Source: Skermanella pratensis | Lineage (GTDB): Bacteria > Pseudomonadota > Alphaproteobacteria > Azospirillales > Azospirillaceae | Assembly: GCF_008843145.1 (NCBI RefSeq) | Contig: NZ_CP030265.1 | Location: 5,635,001-5,699,000, forward strand | DNA: 64,000 nt | Reading direction: 5' to 3' | Shown here: positions 8,317 through 56,185 of the stretch, piece by piece | Layout: every line of letters begins with the position of its first letter | Position numbering within the stretch: position 1 is the first letter of the stretch | The notes under the pieces: generated by a model | What the model was told of the DNA's origin: nothing | What the model saw: only the letters and a program-made list of their open reading frames with translations | Database searches by the model: none | Translations under genes and position numbers: made by a program

Positions 8317-10223
8317 GCTTCCACCGCCTCCTCGCCGGCTGCCTGGCCCTCGCCGCGATCGCGTTCCTCGCGACGGTTCCCGCGGCTGCCGCGGTCGAGA
8401 CGCCCTATTTCGCCGAGCAGGTCGCCGCCGGAAAGCTGCCGCCGGTCGGGGAGCGGCTGCCGGCCGATCCCCGGATCGTGACATTCGACGAGGATGGGGC
8501 GCAGCAGGGCCAGCCGGGCGGCGACATGACCATGCTGATGGCGCGGGCCAAGGACGTACGCATCATGTTCGCGTACTTCTATGCCCGCCTGATGACGTAC
8601 ACCACGGACCTGACGCTCGAACCGGACATCCTCCAGTCGATCGAGGTCGAGGAAAACCGGGTCTTCACGCTCCATCTCAGGCCCGGGCACCGCTGGTCGG
8701 ACGGATCGCCCTTCACCGCCGAGGATTTCCGCTACTGGTGGGAAGACGTGATCCTGAACAAGGACGTGCCGCCCTTCGGCCCCCCGCCGGAGATGCTGGC
8801 CGGCGGCGAGCCCCCCCTGTTCGAAGTGCTGGACGAGACCACCGTACGCTACACCTGGAAGGAGCCGAACCCGCTGTTCCTGCCGTCGCTGGCGGCGGCG
8901 CGGCCGCTGGAGATCTTCGGCCCCGCGGCCTACCTGAAGCAGTTTCACGTGAAATACGCCGACGCCGGCCAGCTGAAGGAGCGGGCCAAGGCGGCGGGGC
9001 AGAAGAGCTGGGCGCACCTGCACAACCGCATGGACAACGCCTACGACAACGACAATCCCGACATGCCGACGCTCCAGCCCTGGATCAACACCACGGCGGC
9101 GCCGGCCGAGCGGTTCGTCTTCGTGCGCAATCCCTACTATCACCGGGTCGATCCGGCGGGCAACCAGCTCCCCTATATCGACCGGCTGCTGGTGCAGATC
9201 GCCGACGGCAAGATCATCCCGGCGAAGGCCGGGGCCGGCGAGGCCGACCTCCAGGCGCGCTATCTGCGCTTCGACAACTACACCTTCCTGAAGCAGGCGG
9301 CCAAGCGGAACGGCTACAAGGTCGATCTGTGGAAGACCGGCAACGGCGCCCATCTGGCGCTGTTCCCCAACCTCAACACGGCCGATCCGGTCTGGCGCGA
9401 CCTGTTCCGCGACGTCCGCTTCCGCCGGGCGCTGTCGCTCGGCATCGACCGCGACGAGATCAACCAGGCGATCTATTACGGCCTCGCCCATCCGTCCAAC
9501 AACACGGTGCTGCCCCGCTCGCCCCTGTTCCGGCCGGAATACCGGCAGGCCTGGACACGGTTCGACGTGCGCGAAGCCAACCGGCTGCTCGACGAGATGG
9601 GACTGACCAGCCGGGGCGGCGAGAATATCCGGCTGATGCCCGACGGGCGCCCGATGGAGATCATCGTCGAGACGGCGGGCGAGAGCACGGAGGAAGTGGA
9701 CGTCCTCGAACTGATCGCCGATAGCTGGCGGAAGATCGGGGTCAAGCTCTTCACCAAGCCGTCCCAGCTGGAGGTGCTGCGCAATCGGATCTATTCCGGC
9801 CAGACCCTGATGGCGATCGCCAAGGGAGTGGACAACGGCATCCCCACGGCCGACATGGCGCCGACCGAGTTCGTGCCGATGGACCAGAACCAGTATCAAT
9901 GGCCGAAATGGGGCCAGTTCTACCAGACCGGCGGCACCGCGGGCGAAAAGCCCGCCCTGCCCGCCGCGGTCGAGCTGATGGATCTGATGGGCCGGTGGCG
10001 GACGGCGCCCGACACATCGGCGCGGGCGGAGGTCTGGCACCGCATCCTGGGCATCCACGCCGACCAGGTCTTCACCATCGGGCTAGTCAACGGAACCCTC
10101 CAGCCGGTCGTCGTGCGCTCCACCCTGCGCAACGTGCCGGACGAAGGGATCTACAATTGGGACCCGGGCGCTCATTTCGGCATCTACCGGCCCGACACCT
10201 TCTGGTTCGCCAAGCCGGGCTGA
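8313..10223 (+). CDS. Extracellular solute-binding protein, family 5
   Basis: Periplasmic binding protein of 636 aa, longer than the usual 500-540 aa of peptide-binding SBPs and similar in length to YejA-type proteins. A Sec signal peptide is clear (hydrophobic core [21 protein letters not shown], cleavage near residue 26). Family features include [20 protein letters not shown] and [19 protein letters not shown]. Start ATG overlaps the ATPase stop. Ligand is unknown; a peptide, glycopeptide or oligosaccharide would suit the neighbouring glycosyltransferase and deacetylase. A parS-like palindrome lies inside at 8941-8956. Confidence 0.92.
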
Positions 10224-12461: not shown

Positions 12462-13295
12462 CTAAAGGTTGAGAATCATGCCTTCAAAAGCAACCAGGGT
12501 TCCCGGCCTCATGGCTTCCGCCTCGGCCGCGATGCCGTCCATGACGGTGTCGTCGTGGTTGGGCTCATGGTGGAAGATCACCGCCCGCCCTACCCCGGCG
12601 GCATCGGCGACCCGGCACCCCTCCTGCCAAGTCGAATGGCCCCAGCCGACATGGCGCGGATAGACCGCGTCGGTATACATGCCGTCATAGACCATCACGT
12701 CGGCGCTGCGTGCCAAGTCGAGCACGGCCGGGTCGAGCCCTTCGGCGCGGTGCTCCGTGTCGGTCACGATCGCCAGCACCCTGCCCTCGAACTCCACCCG
12801 GTAGCCGCAGCACCGGTTGGGATGGTTGAGCGGCCCGGTCCTCAGCGTGATGCCCGGCCCTGGAGTCAGCGTCGCCCCGCATTCGAAATCGTTGAAGGTG
12901 CAGGAATGGTCGAAGGCGGAGAGCGGCACCGGGAACAGCGGGGCGATCATCATGTCGCACAGCACGGACCGGATCGTCTGCGGCGGCGGCAGGTGGCCGG
13001 CCCACAGGCGCAGCCGGTTGCGCGGGTCGAAGGCCGGGGCGAAGAACGGCAGCCCCGCCACATGGTCGTAGTGGGTATGGGTGAAGAACAGGTCGAGATC
13101 CAGCGGCGCCTTTGGCGCCAGCTGGGTGCCGAACGGGCGGATCCCCGTACCGGCATCGAAGATCATGAGGTGATCCCCACACCGGACCTCTATGCAGGTG
13201 GTGTTGCCGCCATATCGCGCCGTCTCGGGGCCAGGCGACGGGATGCTGCCTCGGACACCCCAGAATCGGACGACGAAATCTGCTGACGGCGGCAT
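12462..13295 (-). CDS. MBL-fold metallo-hydrolase
   Basis: 277-aa metallo-beta-lactamase-fold hydrolase. It has FWGVRGSIPSPG at the N-terminus, the metal-binding H-x-H-x-D-H motif in FTHTHYDHVAGLPFF, a further ligand region in TDTEHRAEG, and GWGHSTWQEG and FHHEPNHDD near the end. This subgroup resembles PhnP/cyclic-nucleotide-phosphodiesterase-like proteins annotated as MBL-fold hydrolases. ATG 13295 is preferred over a TTG one codon upstream. Convergent with the ABC operon. Substrate unknown. Confidence 0.85.
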   Translation of the reverse strand: MPPSADFVVRFWGVRGSIPSPGPETARYGGNTTCIEVRCGDHLMIFDAGTGIRPFGTQLAPKAPLDLDLFFTHTHYDHVAGLPFFAPAFDPRNRLRLWAGHLPPPQTIRSVLCDMMIAPLFPVPLSAFDHSCTFNDFECGATLTPGPGITLRTGPLNHPNRCCGYRVEFEGRVLAIVTDTEHRAEGLDPAVLDLARSADVMVYDGMYTDAVYPRHVGWGHSTWQEGCRVADAAGVGRAVIFHHEPNHDDTVMDGIAAEAEAMRPGTLVAFEGMILNL

Positions 13296-13447
13296 CAAGG
13301 GCGCCGCCGATTGTTATGTCTTTCGCACATGGTTCTTAATGTGGCGAGCGGTTGGGACGGAGTCGAGAAAAATTCCAGATAGCAACGAAACATGAACAAT
13401 ACTAGCCTGTTGATAATGTGAAACCGTTACTAGAGGAGCTTGGGACC

Positions 13448-13687
13448 ATGGCAAACAGCGGGAACGAAAGCCCGAAGTCACCCGATGCCGGCACCCCGTC
13501 CAATACGGAAAAGGACCCGTCGGACTGGACCACGGGCGACGAGCCGATGACCGGAGCGCAGGCATCCTACCTGAAGACCCTGAGCGAAGAGGCGAACGAG
13601 GATTTCGACGCTTCGCTCAACAAGGCCGATGCCTCGCGGCGGATCGACGAACTGCAGAACAAGACCGGGCGCGGCAAGCAGAGCTGA
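13448..13687 (+). CDS. DUF3072 small protein
   Basis: 79-aa hydrophilic protein. The core WTTGDEPMTGAQASYLKTL and FDASLNKADASRRIDELQ matches DUF3072, a small family annotated as hypothetical. The ATG at 13448 has a good ribosome site (GAGGAG about 10 bp upstream); the frame is open for another 10 codons upstream but without one. The N-terminal 25 residues are low-complexity and likely disordered. Divergent from the MBL gene. Function unknown; in other bacteria such proteins often accompany stress genes, which is only a weak hint. Confidence 0.8.
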   Translation: MANSGNESPKSPDAGTPSNTEKDPSDWTTGDEPMTGAQASYLKTLSEEANEDFDASLNKADASRRIDELQNKTGRGKQS

Positions 13688-13745
13688 CGCCCCTGATGAA
13701 GTCGAGCCCGGAAAAATCGGATTTGGGGCATTATCTCCATTAACC

Positions 13746-13760
13746 TTAATCCGGTGTTAA
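13746..13760. promoter_or_regulatory. CtrA-box-like site TTAA-N7-TTAA
   Basis: TTAA at 13746 and TTAA at 13757 are separated by exactly 7 bp and followed by CC, matching the alphaproteobacterial CtrA consensus TTAA-N7-TTAAC. Another TTAA sits at 13740. A TATAAC hexamer follows at 13772 and an intrinsic terminator at 13825. No gene is visible directly downstream on the plus strand, so the site may control a short transcript. Match by eye only. Confidence 0.4.
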
Positions 13761-13824
13761 CCAATACGGCCTATAACGAGGACATCGCATCTGTGGTGCG
13801 GTTCCTCCATGTAAAGCAAACTTC

Positions 13825-13858
13825 GGCTCCGTCGGCATCGGTCGATGGAGCCTTTTTT
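13825..13858 (+). terminator. Intrinsic terminator downstream of DUF3072 gene
   Basis: A 6-bp GGCTCC/GGAGCC stem (13825-13830 with 13847-13852) is followed immediately by six T residues (13853-13858). It lies 140 bp beyond the DUF3072 stop and just before the convergent PAP2 gene. It would terminate plus-strand transcripts from the DUF3072 gene or from the possible promoter near 13750-13777. Confidence 0.6.
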
Positions 13859-13860
13859 CG

Positions 13861-14652
13861 TCACGCCTGCCGGACGCGGCCGGGAGGCTGGACGGCCCCG
13901 GTCTCCCACAGGCGCCGGAGGGTTCGGCCGGTCGCCAGCGGGAGCAGCAGGCCGGGCCAGAGGAAACGGTACGCTCCCCCGGTCTCCCGGTGGAAGACCC
14001 ATCCCCGCGCCGCGAAACAGGCGCGCAGCCAATAGGTCGTGACGACCGCCAGGACACCGCCCCCGAACACGTCGGTCAGGAAATGGGCATTCACCGCAAT
14101 GCGGCTGAGTCCGATCAGGCAGGCCGCGGCCAGGAGCGTGCCGCGCCAGGACGGGAGCAGGAACGAGACCGCGAGGGCGAAAGCCACCGCCGTGTTGGTA
14201 TGCCCGGAGGGAAAAGAATGGAAGTTCGCGTCCAGGATCAGCGGATCGAACCCCGAGAAACCCGACTGCTCCAGCAGCGTCGGCCGGCCCCGGCCGATGA
14301 TGACCTTGGCGATGTTGACGGCAATCCCGGAGAGCGCGACCGACACGAAGACGAACATGAACGCCGAACCGGCCCACCGGGCCATCGCCGCGGCACGGCG
14401 GTCGGCCAGGATGAACCACCCGGCGGCCATCAGTCCCAGCCCCAGTACGCCGGTCGGCACCAGCGTCCATTTGCTGTCCCCCGCTTCCGTGATGGTTCGG
14501 AAAACCGCCAGCAGTCCCGGATCGGCAGACCGCGCCAACTCCAGCACGGTGCGGTCCAGTTGATTCGACACCATATGGCCGAACAGGAACAGCAGGCACC
14601 AGAAGGTGTACCGGACCGGCCGCGTCTGGTCTTCGGTGAACGGAATTCGCAT
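13861..14652 (-). CDS. PAP2-family membrane phosphatase
   Basis: 263-aa integral membrane phosphatase with about six helices. All three active-site motifs of the PAP2/acid phosphatase superfamily are present: K-x6-RP in KVIIGRGRP, PSGHT in HSFPSGHTNTA, and SR-x5-H-x3-D in SRIAVNAHFLTD. Known relatives dephosphorylate lipid phosphates such as undecaprenyl pyrophosphate, lipid A or phosphatidate at the periplasmic face. Its position beside an ArnT/GT2 envelope-modification module fits a lipid A or carrier-lipid role, but this is context only. Confidence 0.88.
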   Translation of the reverse strand: MRIPFTEDQTRPVRYTFWCLLFLFGHMVSNQLDRTVLELARSADPGLLAVFRTITEAGDSKWTLVPTGVLGLGLMAAGWFILADRRAAAMARWAGSAFMFVFVSVALSGIAVNIAKVIIGRGRPTLLEQSGFSGFDPLILDANFHSFPSGHTNTAVAFALAVSFLLPSWRGTLLAAACLIGLSRIAVNAHFLTDVFGGGVLAVVTTYWLRACFAARGWVFHRETGGAYRFLWPGLLLPLATGRTLRRLWETGAVQPPGRVRQA

Positions 14653-14736
14653 CGTGGCCCCGCCGTTGCCTACGATTTGACAAAAGGACGGGGCCGAAGC
14701 TCCATCCCGTGGCCGGACACTAGTAAAGGTAAGTTG

Positions 14737-16434
14737 TTACCAGGGGGTTACGTCGTGACGACGATACAAGGTCATCATCGGCTTCGTACCGCGCGAATAA
14801 TTTAGACCACTAATTGTTTCTATGGCAATCGGGTGGAATCCCTTGGCTTCGGCTTCGGCCAGAAAGGCATCGTCCTGCGGCAGATCGACGAGGGCCAGCG
14901 CACAGGCATCGTCCGCGAGGCGGTGGGCAGCCACCCGGCCGTCGCCGGAAAGAACCGTCCCGGTCCCCACCAGGAAGACGACACTGGGTTCGGTGAAGCC
15001 GACGGACACCAGGGTCGAGCCGGGGCAGGGCCGCGCCGCGGCGACCGCGGCGGCCACCCTCGGGCTGATCCAGATCTTGTCGATGCGGGGAAGAACAACC
15101 TGGAAGGCGAGCAGGTACATCCCGACGGAGCCGGCGCTCAGCACCGCGACCGAGTGACGCAACTTTCCCCGGCTCAGCAGCAGGGCGCCATGGCCGAGCA
15201 CCGCGAGCACGGCGACCGCGAGCAGCAGGGCCACCGGATCGAGGGTCCATTCGATGACGGCATGCAGGATGGTCGTCCCGGCGGCGAGCACCGCCGAAAT
15301 CAGGAGGAACAGCAGGATCGACAGCGCGGTGAGCCAGCGCCGCCGGCCGCCGAACCCGTCCAGCACGGCGCGCGCGGTCAGCAGCGCCAGCGCCGGATAA
15401 GCCGGCAGCACGTAATGGAACAGCTTGGTCGGCACCGCCTCGAAGACGGCCCAGGTCGGAATGGCCCAGGCCAGGCAGAACAGCACCGCGGGATCCCGCC
15501 GGTTGGCCCAGACCCAGGGGACCGCCGGGATCGCCAGCAGGGACCAGGGCCAGAAGGTGATCGGAAACAGAAGGGTGTAGTAGCCGGGCGGGAACCCCTT
15601 GGACTCCTGTCCGCCGGCGACCTTGGCCAGCATGTCATGGCCGACCGACTCGGCGAAGAAGGCGCCCTGGGTCTTGATGGTGATGAGGACCAGCCAGGGC
15701 GCCACGATCAGGAGGAGTACCGGCAGGCCCAGCCGGGGCCGCAGCGCCGCCAGCCAGCCGGCCCGCCGCTCGACGAGCGCCAGCCCCAGCGCGGTGCCGC
15801 CGACCACCAGCAGGATGATCGGCCCCTTCAGCAGGATGCCGGCCCCGAGGGAACACCAGAACAGCAGCACGAGGCCGGTGGACAGGGCCTCCGGCCCGTT
15901 CCGCCGCAGCCACGCCTCCGCCAGCGCCGCCTGCGCGCCCAGCACGGTCGCCAGCAGCGCCGCGTCCGTCTTGGCGGTGCGCGCCTCGACCGCGAGCAGG
16001 ACGGTGCCGGCCAGCATCGCCGCGGCCAGGAACCCGGCGCGCTCGCCCGGGAGGGGACCGAACAGGGTGGTGCCGATCCGGAAGGTCAGGAGGACGGCCA
16101 GGACGGCGCCGGCCAGCGACGGCAGGCGGTAGGCCCAGATGGCGGCCCGGTCCGGCCCGCCGGCCAGCGTCACCGCGACCGACTGCATCCAGTAGATGCC
16201 GATCGGCTTCTTGTGCCTGGCCTCGCCCTGGAAGCGGATATCGACGAAGTCGCCGCTTTCCAGCATCTGCCGGGTCGCCTGGGCGAAGCGCGCCTCGTCC
16301 CGGTCGGTCGGCGGCAGCGAGAAGAAGCCCGGCAGGAACAGGGCCAGGCAGAGCACCGCAAGCGCCGCCGCCAGTCCGATCCGCTTGAGCGATGCCGGGA
16401 AGAGACGCCCGGAGGACGTGTCCGCGACGCTCAC
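14737..16434 (-). CDS. ArnT-like glycosyltransferase (GT83/PMT family)
   Basis: 565-aa polytopic enzyme of the oligosaccharyltransferase-like GT-C class. The first helix is followed by the catalytic-loop pattern LPPTDRDEARFAQATRQML and HKKPIGIYWMQS, as in ArnT. About 11 or 12 hydrophobic segments follow, then a soluble C-terminal domain. The frame is open upstream, but GTG 16434 overlaps the stop of the preceding LABN gene (GTGA) and gives MSVADTSSG. ArnT-type enzymes move a sugar from undecaprenyl phosphate to lipid A. With the GT2 and LABN genes it forms a classic three-gene module. The sugar is unknown. Confidence 0.87.
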   Translation of the reverse strand: MSVADTSSGRLFPASLKRIGLAAALAVLCLALFLPGFFSLPPTDRDEARFAQATRQMLESGDFVDIRFQGEARHKKPIGIYWMQSVAVTLAGGPDRAAIWAYRLPSLAGAVLAVLLTFRIGTTLFGPLPGERAGFLAAAMLAGTVLLAVEARTAKTDAALLATVLGAQAALAEAWLRRNGPEALSTGLVLLFWCSLGAGILLKGPIILLVVGGTALGLALVERRAGWLAALRPRLGLPVLLLIVAPWLVLITIKTQGAFFAESVGHDMLAKVAGGQESKGFPPGYYTLLFPITFWPWSLLAIPAVPWVWANRRDPAVLFCLAWAIPTWAVFEAVPTKLFHYVLPAYPALALLTARAVLDGFGGRRRWLTALSILLFLLISAVLAAGTTILHAVIEWTLDPVALLLAVAVLAVLGHGALLLSRGKLRHSVAVLSAGSVGMYLLAFQVVLPRIDKIWISPRVAAAVAAARPCPGSTLVSVGFTEPSVVFLVGTGTVLSGDGRVAAHRLADDACALALVDLPQDDAFLAEAEAKGFHPIAIETISGLNYSRGTKPMMTLYRRHDVTPW

Positions 16435-16742
16435 GACGCCGACGCGTGCCCGATGTCGTCGGGAACCGTGTCGTCGCCGGCCGGTTTCCACTTGTCGCGC
16501 CAGATCATCCAGATGTTGCGGGAATAGATCACCAGCCCGAGACCCTGCCCCATGATGAACACGGGGTCCTCGCGATAGATGGCGTAGGCCAGCAGCGTCA
16601 TCCCGCCGGCCATGCTGAAATACCAGAAGACCTCCGGCACGAAGCTGCGCTTGAGGCGCTCGCTCTGGATCCACTGGATCACGAAGCGCATCGAGAACAG
16701 CGCCTGACCCAAGAACCCGATCGCCGTCCAGACGGAGAGCAT
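16431..16742 (-). CDS. LABN-domain membrane protein
   Basis: 103-aa protein with three helices matching the lipid-A-disaccharide-synthase N-terminal (LABN) domain: IGFLGQALFSMRFVIQWIQSE, VFWYFSMAGGMTLLAYAIYR and VFIMGQGLGLVIYSRNIWMI. Free-standing LABN proteins are usually found between a polyprenyl-phosphate GT2 and an ArnT-like transferase, exactly as here. They probably act as a small partner or flippase-like component, which is not established. Its stop overlaps the ArnT-like start. Confidence 0.88.
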   Translation of the reverse strand: MLSVWTAIGFLGQALFSMRFVIQWIQSERLKRSFVPEVFWYFSMAGGMTLLAYAIYREDPVFIMGQGLGLVIYSRNIWMIWRDKWKPAGDDTVPDDIGHASAS

Positions 16743-16787
16743 TCGATCACCCGATAAAGCCTGTATCGATGCCGCGCCATCGATCGA

Positions 16788-17519
16788 TCAGCGGACCTGC
16801 CCGGCACAGTCCTCCAGGACCGAGTCCGGCAGGCGGGTACGGCGTTTCAACCAAAGCACGCCCATCAGATCGACGATACCGATGGTCGCCCGTGCCAGGT
16901 TGCCGTACTTCGACATGCCGCATCGGCGCGGCCGGTGGTTGACGTCGACGAAGGCGACCCGATGCCCGTGGATCTGGAACAGCGCTGGAAGAAACCGGTG
17001 CATCGCCCCGAAGTAAGGCAGATCCAGGAAGGCGTCGCGGCGGAACACCTTGATGCCGCAACCGGTATCGGCGCAGCCGTCGTCCAGGACGGCTTGGCGC
17101 AATCCGTTGGCGATCCTCGTGGCGACCCGCTTGGACCAGACGTCGCGGCGTTCGCGGCGGAGCCCGCCGACCAGCGTCGGCACATCGGGCATCATCGCCC
17201 GGTCCAGCAGGTTGGGAATGTCGGCGGGATCGTTCTGCCCGTCGCCGTCGAGCGTCGCGATCCAGGTGCCCCGGGCGGCCCGGACGCCGGTGCGTACCGC
17301 GGCGCTCTGGCCCGAACGGGCGGAGTGCCGGACGACGCGCACGTCGCCCCGCTCCTCAGCGAGCCGGCCGGCAGTCCCGTCGTCGCTGCCGTCGTCGACG
17401 AAAATCACCTCGTAGTCCACGAACGCGGAGAGCGCCGCCCTGATCTCGACAAGCAGCGGCAGGACGTTCCCGGCCTCGTTATAGACGGGAACGACCACCG
17501 ACAGACGCGGCTCCGCCAT
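16788..17519 (-). CDS. Family 2 glycosyltransferase (polyprenyl-phosphate sugar transferase type)
   Basis: 243 aa from the chosen ATG 17519 (MAEPRLSVVVPVYNEAGN), which is the family's usual beginning. ATG 17570 and TTG 17663 would add 17 and 48 poorly conserved residues. GT-A motifs: VVPVYNEAGN, EVIFVDDGSDDGT, IATLDGDGQNDPADI (DXD region) and SKYGNLARATIGIVDL. The dolichol-phosphate-mannose-synthase-like form has no C-terminal helices here. Likely charges undecaprenyl phosphate with a sugar used by the ArnT-like enzyme. Confidence 0.86.
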   Translation of the reverse strand: MAEPRLSVVVPVYNEAGNVLPLLVEIRAALSAFVDYEVIFVDDGSDDGTAGRLAEERGDVRVVRHSARSGQSAAVRTGVRAARGTWIATLDGDGQNDPADIPNLLDRAMMPDVPTLVGGLRRERRDVWSKRVATRIANGLRQAVLDDGCADTGCGIKVFRRDAFLDLPYFGAMHRFLPALFQIHGHRVAFVDVNHRPRRCGMSKYGNLARATIGIVDLMGVLWLKRRTRLPDSVLEDCAGQVR

Positions 17520-17740
17520 GGGGAAGACGGCAGCAGACCGGGCGGCAGCGGGAGCGACGATGGTGACCATGGGACCCCGGAGGCATGGCGACGGACAGGC
17601 GGCATCATAACCGGCCCGGGGATGGAAGGAAGTAGTTTGCAGGAGACCAAGTACAGATGACAAAAATTTAATAATGGTTACTTGGGAGCGGCAAAGAGTC
17701 CCATACTTGTCTATTCAATCTCCGCCGGTTCCCGCAAGGC

Positions 17741-18430
17741 TCAGGGAATCAGCCGGTACCCTCCCGGTTCGGTCACCAGGATCTCCGCATGGGAGGGGTC
17801 GCGCTCGATCTTCTGGCGCAGGCGGTAGACATGGGTTTCCAGCGTGTGGGTGGTGACCCCGGCATTGTAGCCCCAGACCTCGCCCAGCAGGGTGTCGCGG
17901 CCGACCACCTTCTCGCCGGCGCGGTAGAGGAACTTGAGGATCGCCGTCTCCTTCTCGGTCAGCCTGATCTTGCGGTTGCCGGCCTCGTTCATCAGGAGCT
18001 TGACGCTGGGACGGAAGGTGTAGGGGCCGATCGAGAAGACCGCATCCTCGCTCTGCTCGTACTGGCGCAACTGGGCACGCAGCCGCGCGAGCAGCACGCT
18101 GAGCCGGAACGGCTTGGTCACGTAGTCGTTGGCGCCGCTGTCGAGGCCCAGGATGGCGTCGCTGTCGGTGCCGGCCGCCGTCAGCATGATGATCGGGCTG
18201 CGCACGCCTTCCCGCCGCATCAGGCGGCACAGTTCGCGCCCGTCCATGTCGGGCAGCCCCACGTCGAGCAGGACGGCGTCGAACACGCCATGGCGGATGA
18301 GGTTGAGTGCGGTCGAGGCGTCGTCCGCCTCGGCCGTCTCGAACTCCTCGAGGAGATGAAGCTGTTCGGCCAGCGACTGGCGCAGCGCCACGTCGTCATC
18401 GACCAGCAGGATCTTCTTGCCCGGCGTCAT
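17741..18430 (-). CDS. OmpR-family response regulator
   Basis: 229-aa two-domain regulator. The receiver domain has the acidic pocket D11-D12-D13, the phosphoacceptor Asp at about 56 in VLLDVGLPDMDG, and Lys at about 106 in YVTKPF. The C-terminal winged helix ends TTHTLETHVYRLRQKIE...GGYRLIP. No histidine kinase lies nearby, so it is an orphan here. Its partner and targets are unknown. It is separated from the GT2 module by about 170-220 bp on the same strand, so co-regulation is uncertain. Confidence 0.92.
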   Translation of the reverse strand: MTPGKKILLVDDDVALRQSLAEQLHLLEEFETAEADDASTALNLIRHGVFDAVLLDVGLPDMDGRELCRLMRREGVRSPIIMLTAAGTDSDAILGLDSGANDYVTKPFRLSVLLARLRAQLRQYEQSEDAVFSIGPYTFRPSVKLLMNEAGNRKIRLTEKETAILKFLYRAGEKVVGRDTLLGEVWGYNAGVTTHTLETHVYRLRQKIERDPSHAEILVTEPGGYRLIP

Positions 18431-18505
18431 CGCATCCCCTGTTAGGGCCCGTTCGGCGCCAGGACCCCGGCACCGGCCCCGGACGGGGAAGCCGATGCGG
18501 GATCC

Positions 18506-18790
18506 TCAGCGCTGGACCTCGACTCCCCGCCAGAACGCGACATGATCCTTGATGGCCGCCGCCGCTTCCTTGGGTTCCGGATAATACCATGCGGCATCGC
18601 GGTTTTCGACGCCATCAACCACAAGCGTGTGGTAATGGGCGGTACCCTTCCAGGGGCATAGGGTCGTGGTGGAGGACGGTTTGAAATAATCGCGCCTGAG
18701 CGCGGACGGCGGGAAATACACGTTGCCTTCGACCAGCTCGAAGCTGTCCGACTCCGCGATCACTGCGCCTTTCCAGAGTGCCTTGGCCAT
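18506..18790 (-). CDS. DUF427 domain protein
   Basis: 94-aa single-domain protein. Core features of DUF427: GNVYFPPSALRRDYF, TTTLCPWKGTAHYHTL and DAAWYYPEPKEAAAAIKDHVAFW. The family has a compact beta fold with the conserved C-P-W-K-G motif and no established reaction. ATG 18790 gives the standard MAKALWKG beginning. Lies between the response regulator and tRNA-Leu on the same strand. Confidence 0.9.
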   Translation of the reverse strand: MAKALWKGAVIAESDSFELVEGNVYFPPSALRRDYFKPSSTTTLCPWKGTAHYHTLVVDGVENRDAAWYYPEPKEAAAAIKDHVAFWRGVEVQR

Positions 18791-18912
18791 GTCTGTCCTC
18801 CCGCGTCGATGACGTACCGCGTGTCGGGTACCGGGAGAGACATAGGCCGATCGGAGCGGCGGGGGAGACCCGCCCTTCGCCGCCGCGCTGCTTTGAAACC
18901 ACCCTCGGAGGA

Positions 18913-18999
18913 TGGTGCCCAGGAGAAGACTCGAACTTCCACGACATTTCTGCCACAGGTACCTGAAACCTGCGCGTCTACCAATTCCGCCACCTGGGC
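18913..18999 (-). tRNA. tRNA-Leu (anticodon CAG)
   Basis: 87 nt including an encoded CCA (TGG on the plus strand at 18913-18915). The acceptor stem GCCCAGG pairs with CCTGGGC, discriminator A. The D arm has the class II GGTAGACGCG signature. The anticodon stem CAGGT/ACCTG encloses loop TTCAGGT, giving anticodon CAG. A long variable arm (GGCAGAAATGTC) and the T-arm GGAAGTTCGAGTCTTCT follow. Class II structure and anticodon agree on leucine, reading CUG, the main Leu codon in this GC-rich genome. Confidence 0.95.
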
Positions 19000-19012
19000 A
19001 GCGCGGACCGGC

Positions 19013-19041
19013 TAGATACTGTGGCGGGTGGCGGCTGTCAA
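19013..19041 (-). promoter_or_regulatory. Sigma-70-type promoter of tRNA-Leu
   Basis: On the minus strand TTGACA (19041-19036) and TATCTA (19018-19013) are separated by exactly 17 bp. The tRNA 5' end follows 13 bp downstream of the -10 element. The -35 is a perfect consensus and the -10 matches 4 of 6. Confidence 0.75.
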
Positions 19042-19047
19042 AGGCTT

Positions 19048-19857
19048 TCAGCGCGGTTCCGCGAAAATATCGACATGCCCGACCAGGGCCTTCAGGACAC
19101 CCGCTTTGACGGCCGCGCGGCGGCGTTCCGCCCAGCCCTCGATCGCTGGAGAGTCGCCGTCCGGCGCGATCTCGCGGGCCGCGCCCCGGTAGCCTTCGAT
19201 CAGCGACAGATGCATGGCGGCGTCCGCCGGCCCGATGGTCCAGTCGCTGAAGGCCGTCGTCACCGCGAAACCATTGGCCCGCAGGGCATCGGCCAGCCGC
19301 GTCGGAGCTTCCGGTCCAAGGGCGGGACCGAAGCCCTTGTCGGTCGCCTGATGCCGCTCGATCCAGCCGCGCACCGCCGCGTCCTGGGGGTCGTCGGGCG
19401 ACCAGCCCAGCCGCCCGTCGACGCTCAGCGTGACCAGCACCGGTCTGGGCGCCCCCGCCAGGGCGGCGACGAAGCGGTCCATCCAGGCGGCTGAAACGAG
19501 GTCGAACAGGGCCGTCGCGACGATGGCGTCGAACTGCCTGAAGTCCAGGGTCTCCAGATCGCGGGCGAGGTCGATCCGGCGGGTCTCGAAAGCGGGCAGG
19601 GGAGGCGGGCAGGCGGCCAGTTCCTCCGCCACCGCGCCGAGCAGGACGGAATCATGGTCGGCCAGGACCCAGCGCTGGCCCGGACGCTGGAGGCGGGGCG
19701 ACAGGTGGCGCAGGTTGGCGCCGGTGCCGGCGGCGAGATCGAGCAGGCGCGGGTTGTCCGGCAGCGCCGCGGCGAACCGCCGGGTGAGCGATCTGTCCCG
19801 GGCGGCATCGTCGAACGGCGCCCGCAGCCGCAGCCAGTCGCGGTCGAAGCCGCCCAT
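19048..19857 (-). CDS. Class I SAM-dependent methyltransferase
   Basis: 269 aa. The SAM-binding motif I is LLDLAAGTGANLRHL, followed by an acidic VLADHD loop and DAIVATALFDLVSAAWM (motif IV region). No target-specific domain is recognised. It is the last gene of a minus-strand operon (RibD-like, MDR dehydrogenase, QueD-like, GT4, methyltransferase). The upstream GT4 gene ends 18 bp before its start. Presumably methylates the product or a sugar made by this cluster; that is inference. Confidence 0.82.
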   Translation of the reverse strand: MGGFDRDWLRLRAPFDDAARDRSLTRRFAAALPDNPRLLDLAAGTGANLRHLSPRLQRPGQRWVLADHDSVLLGAVAEELAACPPPLPAFETRRIDLARDLETLDFRQFDAIVATALFDLVSAAWMDRFVAALAGAPRPVLVTLSVDGRLGWSPDDPQDAAVRGWIERHQATDKGFGPALGPEAPTRLADALRANGFAVTTAFSDWTIGPADAAMHLSLIEGYRGAAREIAPDGDSPAIEGWAERRRAAVKAGVLKALVGHVDIFAEPR

Positions 19858-19875
19858 GTCCCGTCTCCCGGATGC

Positions 19876-20961
19876 TCAATCGCCCATGACGCACAGGCGC
19901 AGCCGAGGTTCCAGACTGGCCAGCTCGGCGGCGAAACGGTCGGCCGCGTCGTTCCAGGTCGGCAGGCGCCGGGCCGCGGACCGCGCCGCCGAGGTCAGCC
20001 GGGAACGCAGCCCGGCGTCCGTCAGCACCCGCCGCAGCGCGTCGCGGAGCGCCGCCGCGTCGCCGGGCGGAACCAGGATCGCGGCATCCTCCGGCACGGT
20101 TGTCGGAATGGCGCCGGCGCGGGTGCTGACGATCGGCAGCCCATGGGACAGCGCCTCCGCCAGCGCCATCCCGTATCCCTCGTAATAGGACGGCAGCACG
20201 AACAGGTCGGCGCCGTTGTACTGGCTGGGCATCGCCGAGGGGCCGATCTCGTCCATCAGGGCGATCCTGCCGGTCAGCCCGTGGCGGGAAATCGCGTCCT
20301 GCACCGCCGCCGCGGCGCCGGCATCGCGCGTGGTGCTGCCGATGCAGGTGAGCTTCCACGGCAGGTCGGCAAGGCCGGCCAGGGCTTCGACCAGCAGCAG
20401 ATGCCCCTTGCGCGGCGTGACGGTGGCGACGCACAGCAGGTTGGGCTCCGGCGTCGCGGAACCGGCGGCGGGCGCCTCGGGCCGGTCGGTCCCGGGCTCG
20501 ACGACGCCGAGCCGGTCCGACGTCACGTGGAACCCGGAGAGCAGCGCTTCCGCGGTATAGGGGCTGGTCACGACGACGCGGTGGACGCGGGCGAGGCAAC
20601 CCTGTTCGAGCTGCCGCAGGGTGCGCGCCTGCGCCTCGTCCAGCCCGGTTTCCAGCGACAGGGGATGGTGGACCAGCGCCACCAGGCGCAGCCGGTGGTT
20701 CTCGATCATCAGGCTGCCGGCGACACCGGGCAGCGCCAGCCCGTCGATCACCACCAGGGCGCCGTCGGGCAGGCGGGACAGCACGCGGTCCGCCTCGTAG
20801 ATCGCTTCCTGGTCGACGATCGGGTAGGGGCCGGGCAGCTCGTGGACATGGACCGCGATACCGCGCGCCCGCAGGCCCGCGACGATGCGGGCGTCATAGA
20901 TGTAACCGCCGGTCTTCTGGTCGAGCCGGCCGGGCAGAACCAGATGGACGTCCAGGCTCAT
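19876..20961 (-). CDS. Family 4 glycosyltransferase in pterin/flavin-like cluster
   Basis: 361 aa from ATG 20961 ([23 protein letters not shown]), whose start overlaps the QueD-like stop (ATGA). The open frame continues upstream but only as the shadow of that gene. GT-B donor-site features: [42 protein letters not shown] and [11 protein letters not shown]. Embedded in a cluster with RibD-, QueD- and RibA-like enzymes, it could glycosylate a heterocyclic product, or a lipid headgroup. Confidence 0.88.
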
Positions 20962-21374
20962 CGAGCCGAATCCCCCTGGAGCGGACCCTCGAAGGTGGCC
21001 CAGGCGAGATGGGATTCGTGCAGGGTGACCTTGAGGCTCTCGAGCCCCTGCCCGCCTTCGCCCAGCGCGCCGTCCAGGATGCGGGCGCTCAGGCGGCGGT
21101 GGATCTCGCCGCACAGGAACTCGGTCGTCGTATTGACCCCGGAAAGCTCCTCGACCTCGTCCAGGTTCCGGTAGTTCAGCGGCTTCAAGACCTCGGCGAG
21201 CAGGGCGGCGGCCATTCCGATATCGACCACGAGGCCGTCGGCGTCGAGGCTGCGCCGGCGCATCTCCAGGTCGCATACGAAGGTGGCGCCGTGGAGCTTC
21301 TGGGCCGGGCCGAACACCGCGCCCTTGAAGCTGTGCGCGATCATGATGTGATCCCGAACGGTCAAGCTGTACAT
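20958..21374 (-). CDS. QueD/PTPS-fold protein lacking canonical catalytic residues
   Basis: 138 aa, the usual length for 6-pyruvoyl/6-carboxy-tetrahydropterin synthase. Fold markers: IAHSF near the N-terminus, [37 protein letters not shown], and a C-terminal HESHLAW with the conserved Glu. Compared with the standard family pattern, the third zinc His (HGH) is Ala (H28-G29-A30), the catalytic Cys of F-G-x-C is replaced (Ala24-Gln25), and the D-H of the catalytic relay is N67-Y68. H14 and H28 remain. It may be an altered enzyme or a binding protein. Coupled by overlap to the downstream GT4. Confidence 0.82.
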
Positions 21375-21399
21375 CGGCGAAGTCCTCCGTTCCGGTTCG

Positions 21400-22414
<1,015 letters not shown>

Positions 22415-22431
<17 letters not shown>

Positions 22432-23272
22432 AATCGAACAGGATATCCGCTCCCAGGACGAAATGGCGCGACTTCGGCCGCAGTCCGCAGTCGATCGTCT
22501 CGATCTCCGGCAAGGTGAAGCTGGGCCGCCCGGAGCCGAGGATCAGCGGCGCCACGGTGACCTGGAGCCGGTCGAGGCAGCCGGCCTGGAGGAAGCGGGA
22601 CACGGTCACGCCGCCGCCCTCGATGAAGACGAATCGCAGGCCCCGGTCGGCCAGCAGCGCCAGGATGCCGGCGGGGTCCAGCCCCGCGCCGCACCGGGGC
22701 AGCCCGACGACTTCGGCGGCGCCGACGCGCTCGCCGGGGCGAGCCAGATCGTGGGCGCACAGCAGCAGGGTCGGCGCGGCGCCGTCGTGGAAAATTCCCT
22801 GGCTGCCGTCGAGCCGGCGGTTGGTGTCGACCACGACCCGCACCGGGTTGCGCCCCTCGCACAGCCGGACGGTCAGCTTGGGATCGTCGTGCCGCACGGT
22901 GCCGGCCCCGACCAGGACGGCGTCCGACAAGGCGCGCATGCGGTGGTTGTGCAGGATGTCCTCGGGACCGGTCACCCACTGGGAGGCGCCGCACAGAGTC
23001 GCGATCCTGCCGTCCAGGCTCTGCCCCAGATGGGCCACGGCATAGCTTCCGCGCGGCATTTCGGCACACAGGGGAAGATAGAGGTCGCACAGGAGGAGAC
23101 TCTCGCGGTCCGCCGGCGGGATGCTTCGCCGGATGGCGTCGGCGGTCGGCGGCTGGTCCGGGCGCGTCCGGGCGTGCCGGAGGTCGAGGATGGTCCGCCA
23201 GAGCCGATCCGGATCAGGGGCGGCCGGGGAGGCGGGCAGGGAGCCCGGAAGGGAACGTTCGGTGCTATCCAT
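22415..23272 (-). CDS. RibD C-terminal reductase-domain protein
   Basis: 285 aa from ATG 23272; a TTG two codons upstream is less likely. The dihydrofolate-reductase-like RibD-C domain is clear: YAVAHLGQSLDGRIAT, LSDAVLVGAGTVRHDDPKLTVR, RVVVDTNRRL, FVFIEGGGVTVSRFL and APLILGSGRPSFT. The N-terminal deaminase domain of bifunctional RibD is missing; about 70 poorly conserved residues stand in its place. It would reduce the ribosyl side chain of a GTP-derived pyrimidine or a related substrate. First gene of the minus-strand operon, divergent from the CDP-alcohol transferase. Confidence 0.86.
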
Positions 23273-28161: not shown

Positions 28162-29088
28162 CTACTGCCCCGTCAGGCGCTGGATCACCTCGTCCAGCTG
28201 GTCCAGCGTCTGGTACTGGATGCTCAGCGTGCCGCCCTGACCCTGGGCGCTGATGCTGACGCGGAGTCCCAGGCGGCCGGTGATGTCCTGCTCCAGGGCC
28301 AGGGTGTCCGGGTCCTTGCCGGGCCGGGATGCGGCGGCCCCGCGGGATGCCGGGGCTGCCGCGCCGACCGGCGCGGGGGGCGCCGGCTCCTCCCTCGGGT
28401 TCTGCGCGTCGCGGGCAAGTTGCTCGACCTGCCGCACGTTCAGGCCCTTCTCCACCACCTGATGGGCGGCCGCCACCGGATCGGGGACCGACAACAGGGC
28501 CCGCGCATGGCCGGCGGTGATCGAGCCGTCCTGGACCAGCTGCTTCACTTGAAGCGGCAGTGTCAGCAGCCGGAGCATGTTGGCGATATGGCTGCGGCTC
28601 TTGCCCAGCGCCTTCGCCAGGGCGTCCTGGGTGTGGCCGAACTCGTCCATCAGCCGCTTGTAGCCCTCGGCCTCTTCCAGGGCGGTCAGATCCTGCCGCT
28701 GGATATTCTCGATCAGCGCGATTTCCAGCGCTTCCCGATCCGTGAACTCGCGGACGACGACCGGAACCTGATGCAGCCCGGCGAGCTGGGCGGCCCGCCA
28801 GCGGCGCTCGCCGGCGATGATCTCGTAGATCTTGGGATCGTCCGGATGCTGGCGGACCAGCAGCGGCTGAAGGATGCCGCGCTCGCGCACGGAGTCCACG
28901 AGGCTCTGGATCGCTTCCTGGTCGAACCGGCGCCTGGGCTGGAACTTGCCGGGCGTGACAAACTCGATCGGCATCTGCCGGGTCTGCTTGCCCTTGTCGG
29001 CTGTCTCCACCAGATCGTCGGCGGCAGCCTCGCCGAACAGCGCGTTGAGGCCGCGGCCGAGGTTCGAGCGGCGCTTGTTCTCTTCCAT
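28162..29088 (-). CDS. parB: Chromosome-partitioning protein ParB
   Basis: 308 aa. ParB binds parS, spreads with CTP and, with ParA, segregates the origin region. Features in order: N-terminal LGRGLNALFGE (ParA-activating region), the CTP-binding ParB/Srx domain with PGKFQPRRRFDQEAI and AGERRWRAAQLAGL, the HTH around TQDALAKALGKSRSHIANMLRLL, and a C-terminal dimerisation domain. Its ATG overlaps the parA stop (TGATG). Three parS palindromes are within 1.4-10 kb. Confidence 0.97.
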   Translation of the reverse strand: MEENKRRSNLGRGLNALFGEAAADDLVETADKGKQTRQMPIEFVTPGKFQPRRRFDQEAIQSLVDSVRERGILQPLLVRQHPDDPKIYEIIAGERRWRAAQLAGLHQVPVVVREFTDREALEIALIENIQRQDLTALEEAEGYKRLMDEFGHTQDALAKALGKSRSHIANMLRLLTLPLQVKQLVQDGSITAGHARALLSVPDPVAAAHQVVEKGLNVRQVEQLARDAQNPREEPAPPAPVGAAAPASRGAAASRPGKDPDTLALEQDITGRLGLRVSISAQGQGGTLSIQYQTLDQLDEVIQRLTGQ

Positions 29089-29873
29089 CAGGCGGTCAGC
29101 CTCTTCTTCTCACGCTTGAGGACTTCGCTCGCCAGGTGGATATAGGCCTGGGAGCCCGGGCAGCGCAGATCGTAGATCAGCACCGGCTTGCCGTGGGAGG
29201 GAGCCTCCGACACCTTGACGTTCCGCGGGATGACCGTGTCGTAGACCTTCTCCCCGAAGAAACCGCGGACATCGGCGGCGACCATGTCGGACAGGTTGTT
29301 GCGCTTGTCGAACATGGTGAGCACGACGCCATGGATATCCAGGCCGGGATTGAAGGCGCGCTTGACCCGCTCGATGGTCCGGATCAGGTGGCTGAGACCT
29401 TCGAGGGCATAGAATTCGCATTGGAGCGGCACCATGACCGCGTCGCTCGCGACCAGGGCGTTGAGCGTCAACAGGCCCAGTGCCGGCGGGCAGTCGATCA
29501 GGACATAGTCGTAGTTCAGGGCGCTGTGGGCGAGCGCCATGCGCAGCCGGTATTCCCGTTGCTCGGCGCCGACCAGCTCGATCTCCGCGCCCGACAGATC
29601 CTGGGAGGAGGTGACCACCCAAAGGTTCGGGACCGAGGTCTCGATCGCGGCGTTCTCGACCCGGACCTCCGCGAAGATCACGTCGTAGGTGCCGACCGTG
29701 CGGCTCGACCGCTCGATGCCGAGGCCGGTCGAGGCGTTGCCCTGGGGGTCCAGGTCCATGATCAGGACGCGCTTGCCGACGGCGGCGAGAGCGGTGGCAA
29801 GGTTGACGGTCGTGGTGGTCTTGCCGACGCCGCCCTTCTGGTTGGCAACGGAGATGACGCGGGCGCGGGACAT
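29088..29873 (-). CDS. parA: Chromosome-partitioning ATPase ParA
   Basis: 261 aa from ATG 29873, chosen because AGAGG lies about 8 bp upstream and MSRARVISVANQKGG is the normal family beginning; GTG 29918 would add 15 residues. The deviant Walker A motif KGGVGKTTTTVNLA is followed by MDLDPQGNASTGLG, VLIDCPPALGLLTLN (Walker B) and ARALQCE-like ParA-specific segments. A DNA-bound ParA gradient pulls ParB-parS complexes. Transcribed after rsmG, before parB, the standard mnmE-mnmG-rsmG-parA-parB order. Confidence 0.96.
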   Translation of the reverse strand: MSRARVISVANQKGGVGKTTTTVNLATALAAVGKRVLIMDLDPQGNASTGLGIERSSRTVGTYDVIFAEVRVENAAIETSVPNLWVVTSSQDLSGAEIELVGAEQREYRLRMALAHSALNYDYVLIDCPPALGLLTLNALVASDAVMVPLQCEFYALEGLSHLIRTIERVKRAFNPGLDIHGVVLTMFDKRNNLSDMVAADVRGFFGEKVYDTVIPRNVKVSEAPSHGKPVLIYDLRCPGSQAYIHLASEVLKREKKRLTA

Positions 29874-29910
29874 CTTGGCCTCTGGAGCGACGGTGGAAAT
29901 GCGGGTGACA

Positions 29911-30519
29911 TCAGGCACGGGACACCTCGCTCACGCGGAGAATGCTGGCGCTGGAGTCGGTGACACTCTGTATCCGATCGACGGTGATATTCCAAGTCTT
30001 CGCAGCGATCGATACTTCATCTTCGGCCTGCTGGCCTTTGGGGAACAGGCAAATCGAGCCCGGCGCCAGAAAAGGGGCGGCGAACCCAAGCAGATTGGCC
30101 AGTGGAGCCAGGGCCCGGGCGGTCACCACATCGGCGGGGAAGGGTTCGACCTGTTCGATTCGGACCGCATGGATGGTCGCGGTGGCGCCGGTGGCGCGAG
30201 CGACTTCCCGCAGGAAAGCGGCCTTGCGCTGATCGCTCTCGATCAGGTGGACCTCGGGAACTCCCAGGATCGCCAGCACCAGCCCCGGAAAACCCGCCCC
30301 GCTGCCGAAGTCAACAAGGGTCCGGGCACCCGGCGGAACCAAGGGATGGAGCTGGGCGGAGTCGGCGAAGTGCCGCGTCCACAGATGGGGCAGGGTCCGA
30401 GGGCCGACCAGATTGATCGCCGGCTGCCATTTCCGCAGGAGGTCCGCATAGACCTGGAGACGGTTGCGTGTTTCACGTGAAACACCGGGAAAAACGTCCT
30501 CAGGCGCTGAGACGGGCAT
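29911..30519 (-). CDS. rsmG: 16S rRNA (guanine-N7) methyltransferase RsmG
   Basis: 202 aa. RsmG methylates G527 of 16S rRNA. Motifs: [29 protein letters not shown], the SAM site [18 protein letters not shown], and [14 protein letters not shown]. The gene overlaps mnmG by 20 bp. Its codons 12-17 coincide with a perfect parS palindrome (VSRET). Confidence 0.96.
30469..30484. promoter_or_regulatory. parS site 1 (perfect)
   Basis: TGTTTCACGTGAAACA, a perfect 16-bp palindrome identical to the alphaproteobacterial parS consensus. It lies inside the 5' coding part of rsmG, about 1.4 kb from parB. Confidence 0.92.
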
Positions 30520-32569: not shown

Positions 32570-32585
32570 CGTTTCACGTGAAACA
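32570..32585. promoter_or_regulatory. parS site 2 (one mismatch)
   Basis: CGTTTCACGTGAAACA differs from the parS consensus only in the first base. It lies between mnmG and mnmE, just beyond the mnmE stop, 3.5 kb from parB. Confidence 0.88.
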
Positions 32586-39109: not shown

Positions 39110-39125
39110 CGTTTCACGTGAAACA
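39110..39125. promoter_or_regulatory. parS site 3 (one mismatch)
   Basis: CGTTTCACGTGAAACA, identical to parS site 2, directly after the quinone oxidoreductase stop codon and about 10 kb from parB. Confidence 0.88.
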
Positions 39126-53815: not shown

Positions 53816-54883
53816 TCAGCCTTGACTTAGATCGGGCCAGGATTTGACCAATGCGGCAAGCTGTCCGACATGCTCGGGCGGCGTCGTCTGGACCACGCCG
53901 TGGCCGAGATTGAACACGAACGGACCGCCGGACAGGCTGCGCAGGATGCCGGTCGCGGACTCGCGCATCGCGTCGCCGCCGGCCACCACCATGATCGGGT
54001 CCAGGTTTCCCTGCACCGGCAGCTTCGGCTGGAGCTCGGCCGCGGCCCATTCCGGCGGCACCGTGGTGTCGAGCCCGAGCGCCGTGACACCGGTCGTCTC
54101 GGCGTATTCCCGGTACATCGCGCCGGCGCCGCGCGGGAACCCGATCACCGGGACGCCGGGATGCCGGGCGTTCAGCAGCTCGACCAGCCGCCTGGTCGGC
54201 TCGATCACCCATTTGCGGAACTCGGGCGCCGGCAGCACGCCGGCCCAGCTGTCGAACACCTGGACCGCCTCGGCCCCGGCCTGGATCTGGGCCGAGAGAT
54301 AATCCGCCGTCGTCCGCACCAGCAGGTCGATCAGCGCCTGGAAACCCTGCGGATCCCCGTAGGCGAACCGCTTGACGTGGGCGTACTCCTTCGAGCCGCC
54401 GCCCTCGACCATGTAGCACGCCACCGTCCAGGGCGATCCCGCGAACCCGATCAGCGCCGTCGTCTCCGGGATCGCGGTCGAGAGCCGCCGCACCGTCTCG
54501 TAGACGGGGGCCAGCCGCTCGTGGAAGGCATCGGTCGACAGCCGGTTCAGGCCGGAGGCTTCGCGGATCGGGTCGAGCTGCGGCCCCTCGCCTTCCACAT
54601 AGTCCAGCTTCTGCCCCAGCGCGTGCGGCACCACCAGGATGTCGGAGAACAGGATCGCGGCGTCCATGCCGTAGCGGCGGAGCGGCTGCAACGTCACCTC
54701 GACCGCCAGCTCGGGCGCGAAGCACAGGTCCAGGAAGCTGCCCGCCTGCGCCCGGGTCGCCCGGTATTCCGGAAGATACCGGCCGGCCTGACGCATCAGC
54801 CAGAACGGGGGCCTCGCCAGGGTCTCCCCGTTCAAGGCGCGGATGAACAACTTCTGCGAGCTTTCCAAGGTGCGAAATTCCAT
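53816..54883 (-). CDS. hemE: Uroporphyrinogen decarboxylase
   Basis: 355 aa from ATG 54883 ([20 protein letters not shown]); GTG 54928 would add 15 residues and reach into the origin region. Signatures: [21 protein letters not shown] near the N-terminus and [22 protein letters not shown] in the middle. Converts uroporphyrinogen III to coproporphyrinogen III. The first gene of hemE-hemH-hemJ, transcribed away from oriC as in Caulobacter. Confidence 0.95.
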
Positions 54884-55321
54884 TCCGAAAGAAGGCGGGG
54901 CCGAGGGCTCGGAAAGCCTTATCCCCACTCAGGGCCAAGACCCTCTTCTATCCTGATTCCTTTTATAGAAGAAGGGTGGCTGTGGATGATCCCTGTGGAA
55001 ACCGGTGATTACATTTCATCCCCACAATGATCCACAGGCTGTGGGAAGGTCACCCGGATTTGTGGACCTCTTCTGGATCGTTTGAGCGATTCCATCGGTA
55101 ATGCTATAGACTCAACAACTCTGGGAGTCATGGGGATAACAGCCCCGAACGGAGAGCTGTCCGCGACTCTCACGGCGACCCATGTAATTATCCGCAGCGG
55201 GGGCAGGTCACCGGCATTCCGGGGCATTACGATCATCAATGGCCCGCCATGACGCGCCACCCCGGAAAAAGGCCGACTTATCCCCGGTAATCATCGAGAT
55301 ATACACAGGCTGACCTTTGGC
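54884..55321. other. Predicted chromosomal replication origin (oriC)
   Basis: 438 bp between divergent hemE and the DUF299 kinase, the position of the Caulobacter origin. DnaA-box-like 9-mers (consensus TTATCCACA): TTATCCCCA 54919, TGTGGATGA 54981, TGATCCACA 55028, TGGGGATAA 55131, TTATCCGCA 55188 (each one mismatch) and TTATCCCCG 55278 (two). An AT-rich patch (TTCCTTTTATAGAAGAA) lies at 54957-54973. No TTAA-N7-TTAA CtrA box was seen. The region may also hold promoters for both genes. Confidence 0.75.
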
Positions 55322-56185
55322 ATGAACTCAAGTCTGAAGCAGTTCCACCTGCATCTGGTGTCCGACGCGACGGGAGAGACGATCAACAGCGTCGCGCGCG
55401 CCTGCGTGGCCCAGTTCGACCAGGTCCAGCCGATCGAGCATTTCTGGAACCTGGTCCGGACGACGCGGCAGCTCGAGATGGTCATCGAGGGGATCAAGGA
55501 TAATCCCGGCCTCGTGATGTTCACCCTGGTCGACGAGAAGCTGCGCCGCCGCCTGCAGGAGACCTGCCGCGAACTCCAGGTGCCCTGCATCCCCGTGCTC
55601 GACCCGCTGATCAATGCGCTGGCCGCCTATCTCGGGCTGGAGAGCCAAAGCCAGCCGGGCCGCCAGCACATGCTGGACGCCGAGTATTTCAGCCGGATGG
55701 ACGCCATGGACTTCGCGCTGGCCCATGACGACGGCCAGAGCACCTGGAACCTGCACGAGGCCGACGTGATCCTGATGGGCGTCTCGCGCACCTCCAAGAC
55801 GCCGACCTGCATCTACCTGGCCAACCGCGGCATCAAGGCGGCCAACGTGCCCTTCGTGCCGGGCTGCCCGCTGCCGCCCGAGCTGTCGCAGGTCACCCGG
55901 CCGCTGATCGTCGGCCTGACCAAGGACCCCGACCGCCTGATCCAGATCCGCAGGAACCGGCTGAGACTGCTGAACCAGGGCGAGGACACCGACTATGTCG
56001 ATCCGGAGGTGGTCCGCCAGGAGGTCGCCGAGGCGCGCCGGCTCTACAGCCGCCACGGCTGGGCGGTGATCGACGTGACCCGCCGCTCGATCGAGGAGAC
56101 CGCGGCCGAGATCATGATGCTGCTGGCCCGGCGCCAGACCGGCTCGCCCGCCGCCCGCGCCGCCCTGGAGAGCGAGAAGTCATGA
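55322..56185 (+). CDS. DUF299 kinase/pyrophosphorylase (PPDK/PEP-synthase regulatory protein)
   Basis: 287 aa. N-terminus QFHLHLVSDATGETINSVARAC, P-loop GVSRTSKTPTCIYLANRG, and GLTKDPDRLIQIRRNRL, typical of the bifunctional serine/threonine kinase and phosphorylase that controls pyruvate phosphate dikinase or PEP synthase. It is the homologue of the gene that borders the Caulobacter origin (RP001/CC0001 family). First gene of the DUF299-maf-aroE-coaE-dnaQ string; its stop overlaps maf. Confidence 0.93.
   Translation: MNSSLKQFHLHLVSDATGETINSVARACVAQFDQVQPIEHFWNLVRTTRQLEMVIEGIKDNPGLVMFTLVDEKLRRRLQETCRELQVPCIPVLDPLINALAAYLGLESQSQPGRQHMLDAEYFSRMDAMDFALAHDDGQSTWNLHEADVILMGVSRTSKTPTCIYLANRGIKAANVPFVPGCPLPPELSQVTRPLIVGLTKDPDRLIQIRRNRLRLLNQGEDTDYVDPEVVRQEVAEARRLYSRHGWAVIDVTRRSIEETAAEIMMLLARRQTGSPAARAALESEKS

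Follow-up and report, generated by a model that had tools for sequence, protein, structure and literature searches.

The 438-bp intergenic region between hemE and ppsR is very probably the chromosomal replication origin (oriC), an ordinary origin of the Caulobacter hemE type in a Skermanella-type alphaproteobacterium. The region lies in the analyzed window of 64,000 nucleotides (C1:5,635,001-5,699,000), which is part of a single-contig genome of 5,869,433 bases, and it is the exact spacer between the start codons of the divergently oriented hemE and ppsR genes (Table 1). According to the DUF299 protein encoded by ppsR, the nearest named relatives are S. stibiiresistens and S. aerolata, with 96% identity. 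A sequence-only reading of the window had proposed an origin in this gap, and the proposal is supported by the gene pair, the length of the spacer, the family-wide presence of DnaA boxes, an AT-rich stretch, and the flanking parABS system. The origin occupies a place that was predicted for this genus; its relative R. centenum had been left with no skew-based origin.

Table 1. Features of the predicted origin domain, in window coordinates.
Feature	Position	Strand	Remark
parS	8941..8956		2 mismatches; 46 kb from the gap
KOPS (GGGNAGGG) polarity switch zone	12800..23000		- to +; not at the gap
parB	28165-29109	-	TIGR00180
parA	29091-29930	-
parS	30469..30484		perfect
parS	32570..32585		1 mismatch
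parS	39110..39125		1 mismatch
hemE	53816..54883	-	TIGR01464; start codon at 54883
Predicted oriC, hemE-ppsR intergenic region	54884..55321
DnaA-box-like TTATCCCCA	54919..54927	+	1 mismatch
AT-rich stretch, probable unwinding element	54940..54974
Three DnaA-trio-like triplets, TAG AAG AAG	54966..54974	+	6-bp spacer to next box
DnaA-box-like TCATCCACA	54981..54989	-	1 mismatch; faces the AT-rich stretch like E. coli R1
Box-like GTTTCCACA	54994..55002	-	2 mismatches; at the alignment position of the CCTGTGGATAAC box conserved in relatives
Box-like TCATCCCCA	55016..55024	+	2 mismatches
DnaA-box-like TGATCCACA	55028..55036	+	1 mismatch
DnaA-box-like TTATCCCCA	55131..55139	-	1 mismatch
DnaA-box-like TTATCCGCA	55188..55196	+	1 mismatch
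Box-like TTATCCCCG	55278..55286	+	2 mismatches
Box-like 9-mer	55299	+	2 mismatches
ppsR / DUF299 (COG1806)	55322..56185	+	NF003742; start codon at 55322

The genes to the right of the gap encode a PpsR-family regulator, Maf, CoaE, DnaQ, and HslU according to NCBIfam models, which also confirm hemE. The claimed gene order hemE / DUF299-maf-aroE-coaE-dnaQ is thereby upheld, with aroE read from its own sequence only. To the left of the gap, NCBIfam identifies hemJ, rho, mnmE, mnmG, ParA, and ParB. The parAB genes are located beyond rho-mnmE-mnmG on the hemE side, as in Caulobacter. Inversion of the parAB-hemE segment was considered and rejected, since the order and strand of the genes from hemE to parB match those in Caulobacter. 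The partition locus had been placed 14-26 kb from the gap; three parS sites are positioned at a distance of 16-24 kb and parAB at 25-27 kb, and there is a fourth parS site farther away (Table 1).

DnaA-box-like 9-mers were counted at one, or at no more than two, mismatches to the reference TTATCCACA. The gap contains exactly five one-mismatch boxes, distributed over both strands, as compared with a mean of 0.08 in dinucleotide shuffles, and none of 5000 shuffles reached five. The previous count of at least five such boxes is therefore accurate and far above the shuffles. When up to two mismatches are allowed, the number of boxes is nine, versus 1.07 in the shuffles. Five boxes in 438 bp constitute the densest cluster within the 2.85 Mb sampled (48% of the 5.87-Mb chromosome), and no other 438-bp stretch in this sample has five. 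No 430-bp stretch in the rest of the window has more than two DnaA-box-like sites, and exact copies of TTATCCACA do not cluster anywhere in the whole genome.

The GC content of the gap is 55%, versus ~68% in the genome (45% AT versus ~32%), and the gap includes the 200-bp segment with the highest AT content in the window. The sequence TGTGGAAAC in this genome is a decayed form of the CCTGTGGATAAC box of the relatives. It is adjoined by a second box, TGTGGATGA, which is six bases from the triplets TAG AAG AAG. The basal unwinding system has been defined as a DnaA box followed by a spacer of at most 16 bp and at least three triplets with a central A (PMC8287927). The box at 54981, its 6-bp spacer, and the three central-A triplets have the arrangement described by this DnaA-trio rule (PMC8287927). 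The organization of the gap suggests that DnaA may load onto the scattered boxes and that a DnaA oligomer from the box pair 54981-55002 may spread across the adjacent AT-rich stretch. The stretch, with its three DnaA-trio-like triplets, would be opened by the oligomer, and two forks would depart in opposite directions. The duplicated parS sites could then be captured by the adjacent ParAB system.

The divergent arrangement of hemE (-), spacer, and ppsR (+) is present in all 47 relatives in which both genes were readable, with spacer lengths of 332-477 bp. Together with the gap described here, the 48 spacers contain 180 one-mismatch boxes versus 2.5 expected from shuffles, and 312 two-mismatch boxes versus 41. 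The comparison of the gap across relatives, which had been proposed as a check, thus gave a positive outcome for the gene pair, the spacer length, and the DnaA boxes. Alignment of the spacers identified a conserved module in which a purine-rich tract, such as GAAGTAGAGGTAGTGG in some Azospirillum, accompanies the AT-rich stretch and CCTGTGGATAAC. The strict DnaA-trio form occurs only in this genome and in one relative (L021), and therefore strict DnaA-trios were rejected as a conserved element; the other relatives have a related purine tract that lacks three clean triplets. The spacers of the relatives (L021-L069) also contain 291 copies of the CcrM methylation motif GANTC, versus 33 expected from the flanking rate and 53 from palindromes of the same composition. 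Many Azospirillum spacers have 9-11 copies per 400-480 bp, and there are five in the gap. The enrichment resembles that of GATC in the oriC of E. coli.

In a 2007 publication, the list of experimentally identified origins included a single alphaproteobacterial one, Cori of Caulobacter crescentus, which is positioned between hemE and a COG1806 gene (PMC1914354). The gap shares with Cori the flanking genes, a similar length, DnaA boxes, and an AT-rich stretch (PMC1914354). However, Cori carries five CtrA sites and one IHF site (PMC1914354), whereas the gap contains neither. There is no TTAA-N7-TTAA sequence in the gap, and TTAA is absent from its entire length, in agreement with the earlier statement that no clear CtrA box is present. 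The search for an IHF site in the gap gave no match to WATCAANNNNTTR with up to one mismatch. The genome encodes a CtrA orthologue (424 bits, above the curated cut-off). The absence of CtrA sites is not surprising, because CtrA is not essential in the Magnetospirillum/Rhodospirillum group according to a comparative study (PMC2877005). A perfect intergenic CtrA-type TTAA-N7-TTAA site is located at approximately 13747-13761 of the window, close to the KOPS switch; ~0.4 such sites are expected per window. The oriC of E. coli is similar to the gap in that CCTGTGGATAAC (box R1) is positioned on the same side of the AT-rich region and in the same orientation. It differs in its neighbors, mnmG-mioC, and in the presence of GATC instead of GANTC. 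Sites for IHF and Fis are known in the E. coli oriC.

The cumulative GC skew of the chromosome is weak, with a maximum near 2.9 Mb and a minimum near C1:0.1 Mb. The GC-skew test put forward with the sequence-only reading does not single out the gap, as the minimum is ~280 kb off and the signal is not strong enough for a decision. Neither skew at third codon positions nor gene-strand bias provided a usable signal for the origin, and the search for dif by consensus gave no match at up to three mismatches. The orientation of rRNA genes was of no help either, as none turned up in the genome sequence, probably owing to masking. The asymmetry of G-runs (GGGG and GGGGG without KOPS) turns at C1 ~60-210 kb, a third location distinct from both the gap and the KOPS switch. 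Skew has been reported to be a poor origin locator in several alphaproteobacteria (PMC1914354), and therefore a polarity switch was not treated as strictly defining oriC. The GC skew and KOPS together place the origin in the broad zone of the gap, 5.65-0.1 Mb on the circular chromosome, and not elsewhere. Because of this agreement, and because there is no rival box cluster in the DNA sampled, we retain the identification of the gap as oriC with high confidence.

A scan of all octamers identified one strong polar signal, the FtsK-orienting KOPS, with 653 sites in the sample, 84% of them polar. The KOPS direction switches at 2,905,191, on the terminus side, and near 5.65 Mb. The likelihood of the latter switch is best at 5,648,000-5,654,000 (window 13-19 kb). 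Measured from the gap, this switch, at ~13-20 kb of the window, is 35-42 kb away, on the side of parS and beyond parAB. Placing the switch at the gap lowers the log-likelihood by 24 units, and neither KOPS nor GC skew changes polarity there. Of the 22 KOPS between 21.9 and 54.9 kb of the window, 18 are oriented to the right, in the direction of the gap (P 0.002 versus no polarity and 2e-11 versus the leftward polarity expected from a switch at the gap, with the sites treated as independent). The offset is thus a measured property of this genome. Coding-strand bias was rejected as its cause, since agreement stays at 82-87% for either orientation of the genes and the offset persists. The segment at 5.640-5.677 Mb (window 5200-42000), around parS, has 30 KOPS versus 8.5 expected (3.5-fold, P 8e-9) and is the densest KOPS stretch sampled, followed by one next to the terminus switch. 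G-rich composition was rejected as the source of this enrichment, as none of 21 one-letter variants is significantly enriched in the segment, in which the top over-represented octamers are parts of parS and KOPS. The genome contains two FtsK/SpoIIIE-family genes, at C1:165255 and C1:2844636, one of which is ~60 kb from the terminus-side switch.

The mechanism proposed for the origin does not account for the switch in KOPS direction 35-42 kb from the gap. The functional origin could have moved to the switch zone (window 13-23 kb), leaving the hemE gap as an ancestral origin conserved for another reason, which would agree with the strongly supported switch and the high KOPS density there. We consider such a relocation improbable, since the zone holds ordinary metabolic and envelope genes, contains at most two DnaA-box-like sites per 430 bp and nothing conserved was found in it, whereas the boxes of the hemE gap are retained in all close relatives. 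Placement of the origin next to dnaA, which is at contig position 1 (C1:1), 179 kb clockwise from the gap, was suggested for the relative R. centenum in the publication of its genome (PMC2890560), and both the GC skew and the G-run asymmetry turn at C1 ~60-210 kb. It is nevertheless very improbable in this chromosome: a KOPS switch at dnaA is ~50 log-likelihood units worse than the best position, and there is no true box cluster in the 40 kb around the gene. The next best box groups in the 2.85 Mb sampled are three boxes upstream of dnaA and three near C1:341,712, but the former was rejected as a true cluster; of the two small groups upstream of dnaA, one is a 15-bp tandem repeat near dut and the other is a hairpin. 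The repeat, which includes TTATCAACA (L189 11770-11830, C1:5,861,205), mimics a DnaA-box cluster.

By its position, the gap must contain two divergent promoters, and its boxes might serve for the control of hemE and ppsR by DnaA instead of replication initiation. This function on its own is extremely improbable, because nine box-like sites, an AT-rich stretch next to an R1-oriented box, and a position equivalent to that of Cori exceed what belongs to a promoter.

With the hemE gap as oriC, the KOPS offset could reflect selection for segregation centered on the partition locus or an earlier displacement of the origin domain; the origin being elsewhere than the conserved boxes is the third possibility. 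It is conceivable, but on balance doubtful, that in this family the axis of FtsK pumping, as marked by the change in KOPS direction, is fixed tens of kb away from oriC, on whichever side of the origin domain carries parS, and keeps to that side when parS changes flank. If so, segregation polarity would be centered on the partition locus instead of the replication origin. A real offset would mean that the starts of replication and of segregation polarity, usually taken as one point, are separate, and that KOPS and skew are unfit to fix origins more finely than ~50-100 kb in this family.

The relatives, mostly Azospirillum, have no KOPS switch in the 6 kb flanking the gap on each side: when the gap is read with ppsR on the + strand, 79 of 93 sites to the left and 137 of 160 to the right point leftward, although many of these sites are shared by descent and the counts are not independent. 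In A. oryzae COC8 (G023), KOPS run in one direction through the gap, which is at 145 kb of a 238-kb contig, and switch at ~65-73 kb, their directions being mixed as far as ~108 kb. The main parS sites of A. oryzae COC8 are on the ppsR flank (126-136 kb) and not on the hemE flank as in Skermanella, and both have the order switch - parS - oriC; two lineages are too few for a rule. Arenibaculum (L023) does not show clear agreement with this order, having too few sites. In the E. coli control, covering 100 kb on each side of oriC, KOPS point away from the origin in five of five cases on the right and three of six on the left, which is too sparse for judging the precision of the switch. The main parS is positioned on the ppsR flank in G006, G013, G015, G016, G019, G021, and G023, and on the hemE flank in G000, G001, G002, G004, G007, G014, G020, G030, G032, G034, and G035. 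Therefore, the orientation of the hemE-ppsR block with respect to parS has been reversed one or more times.
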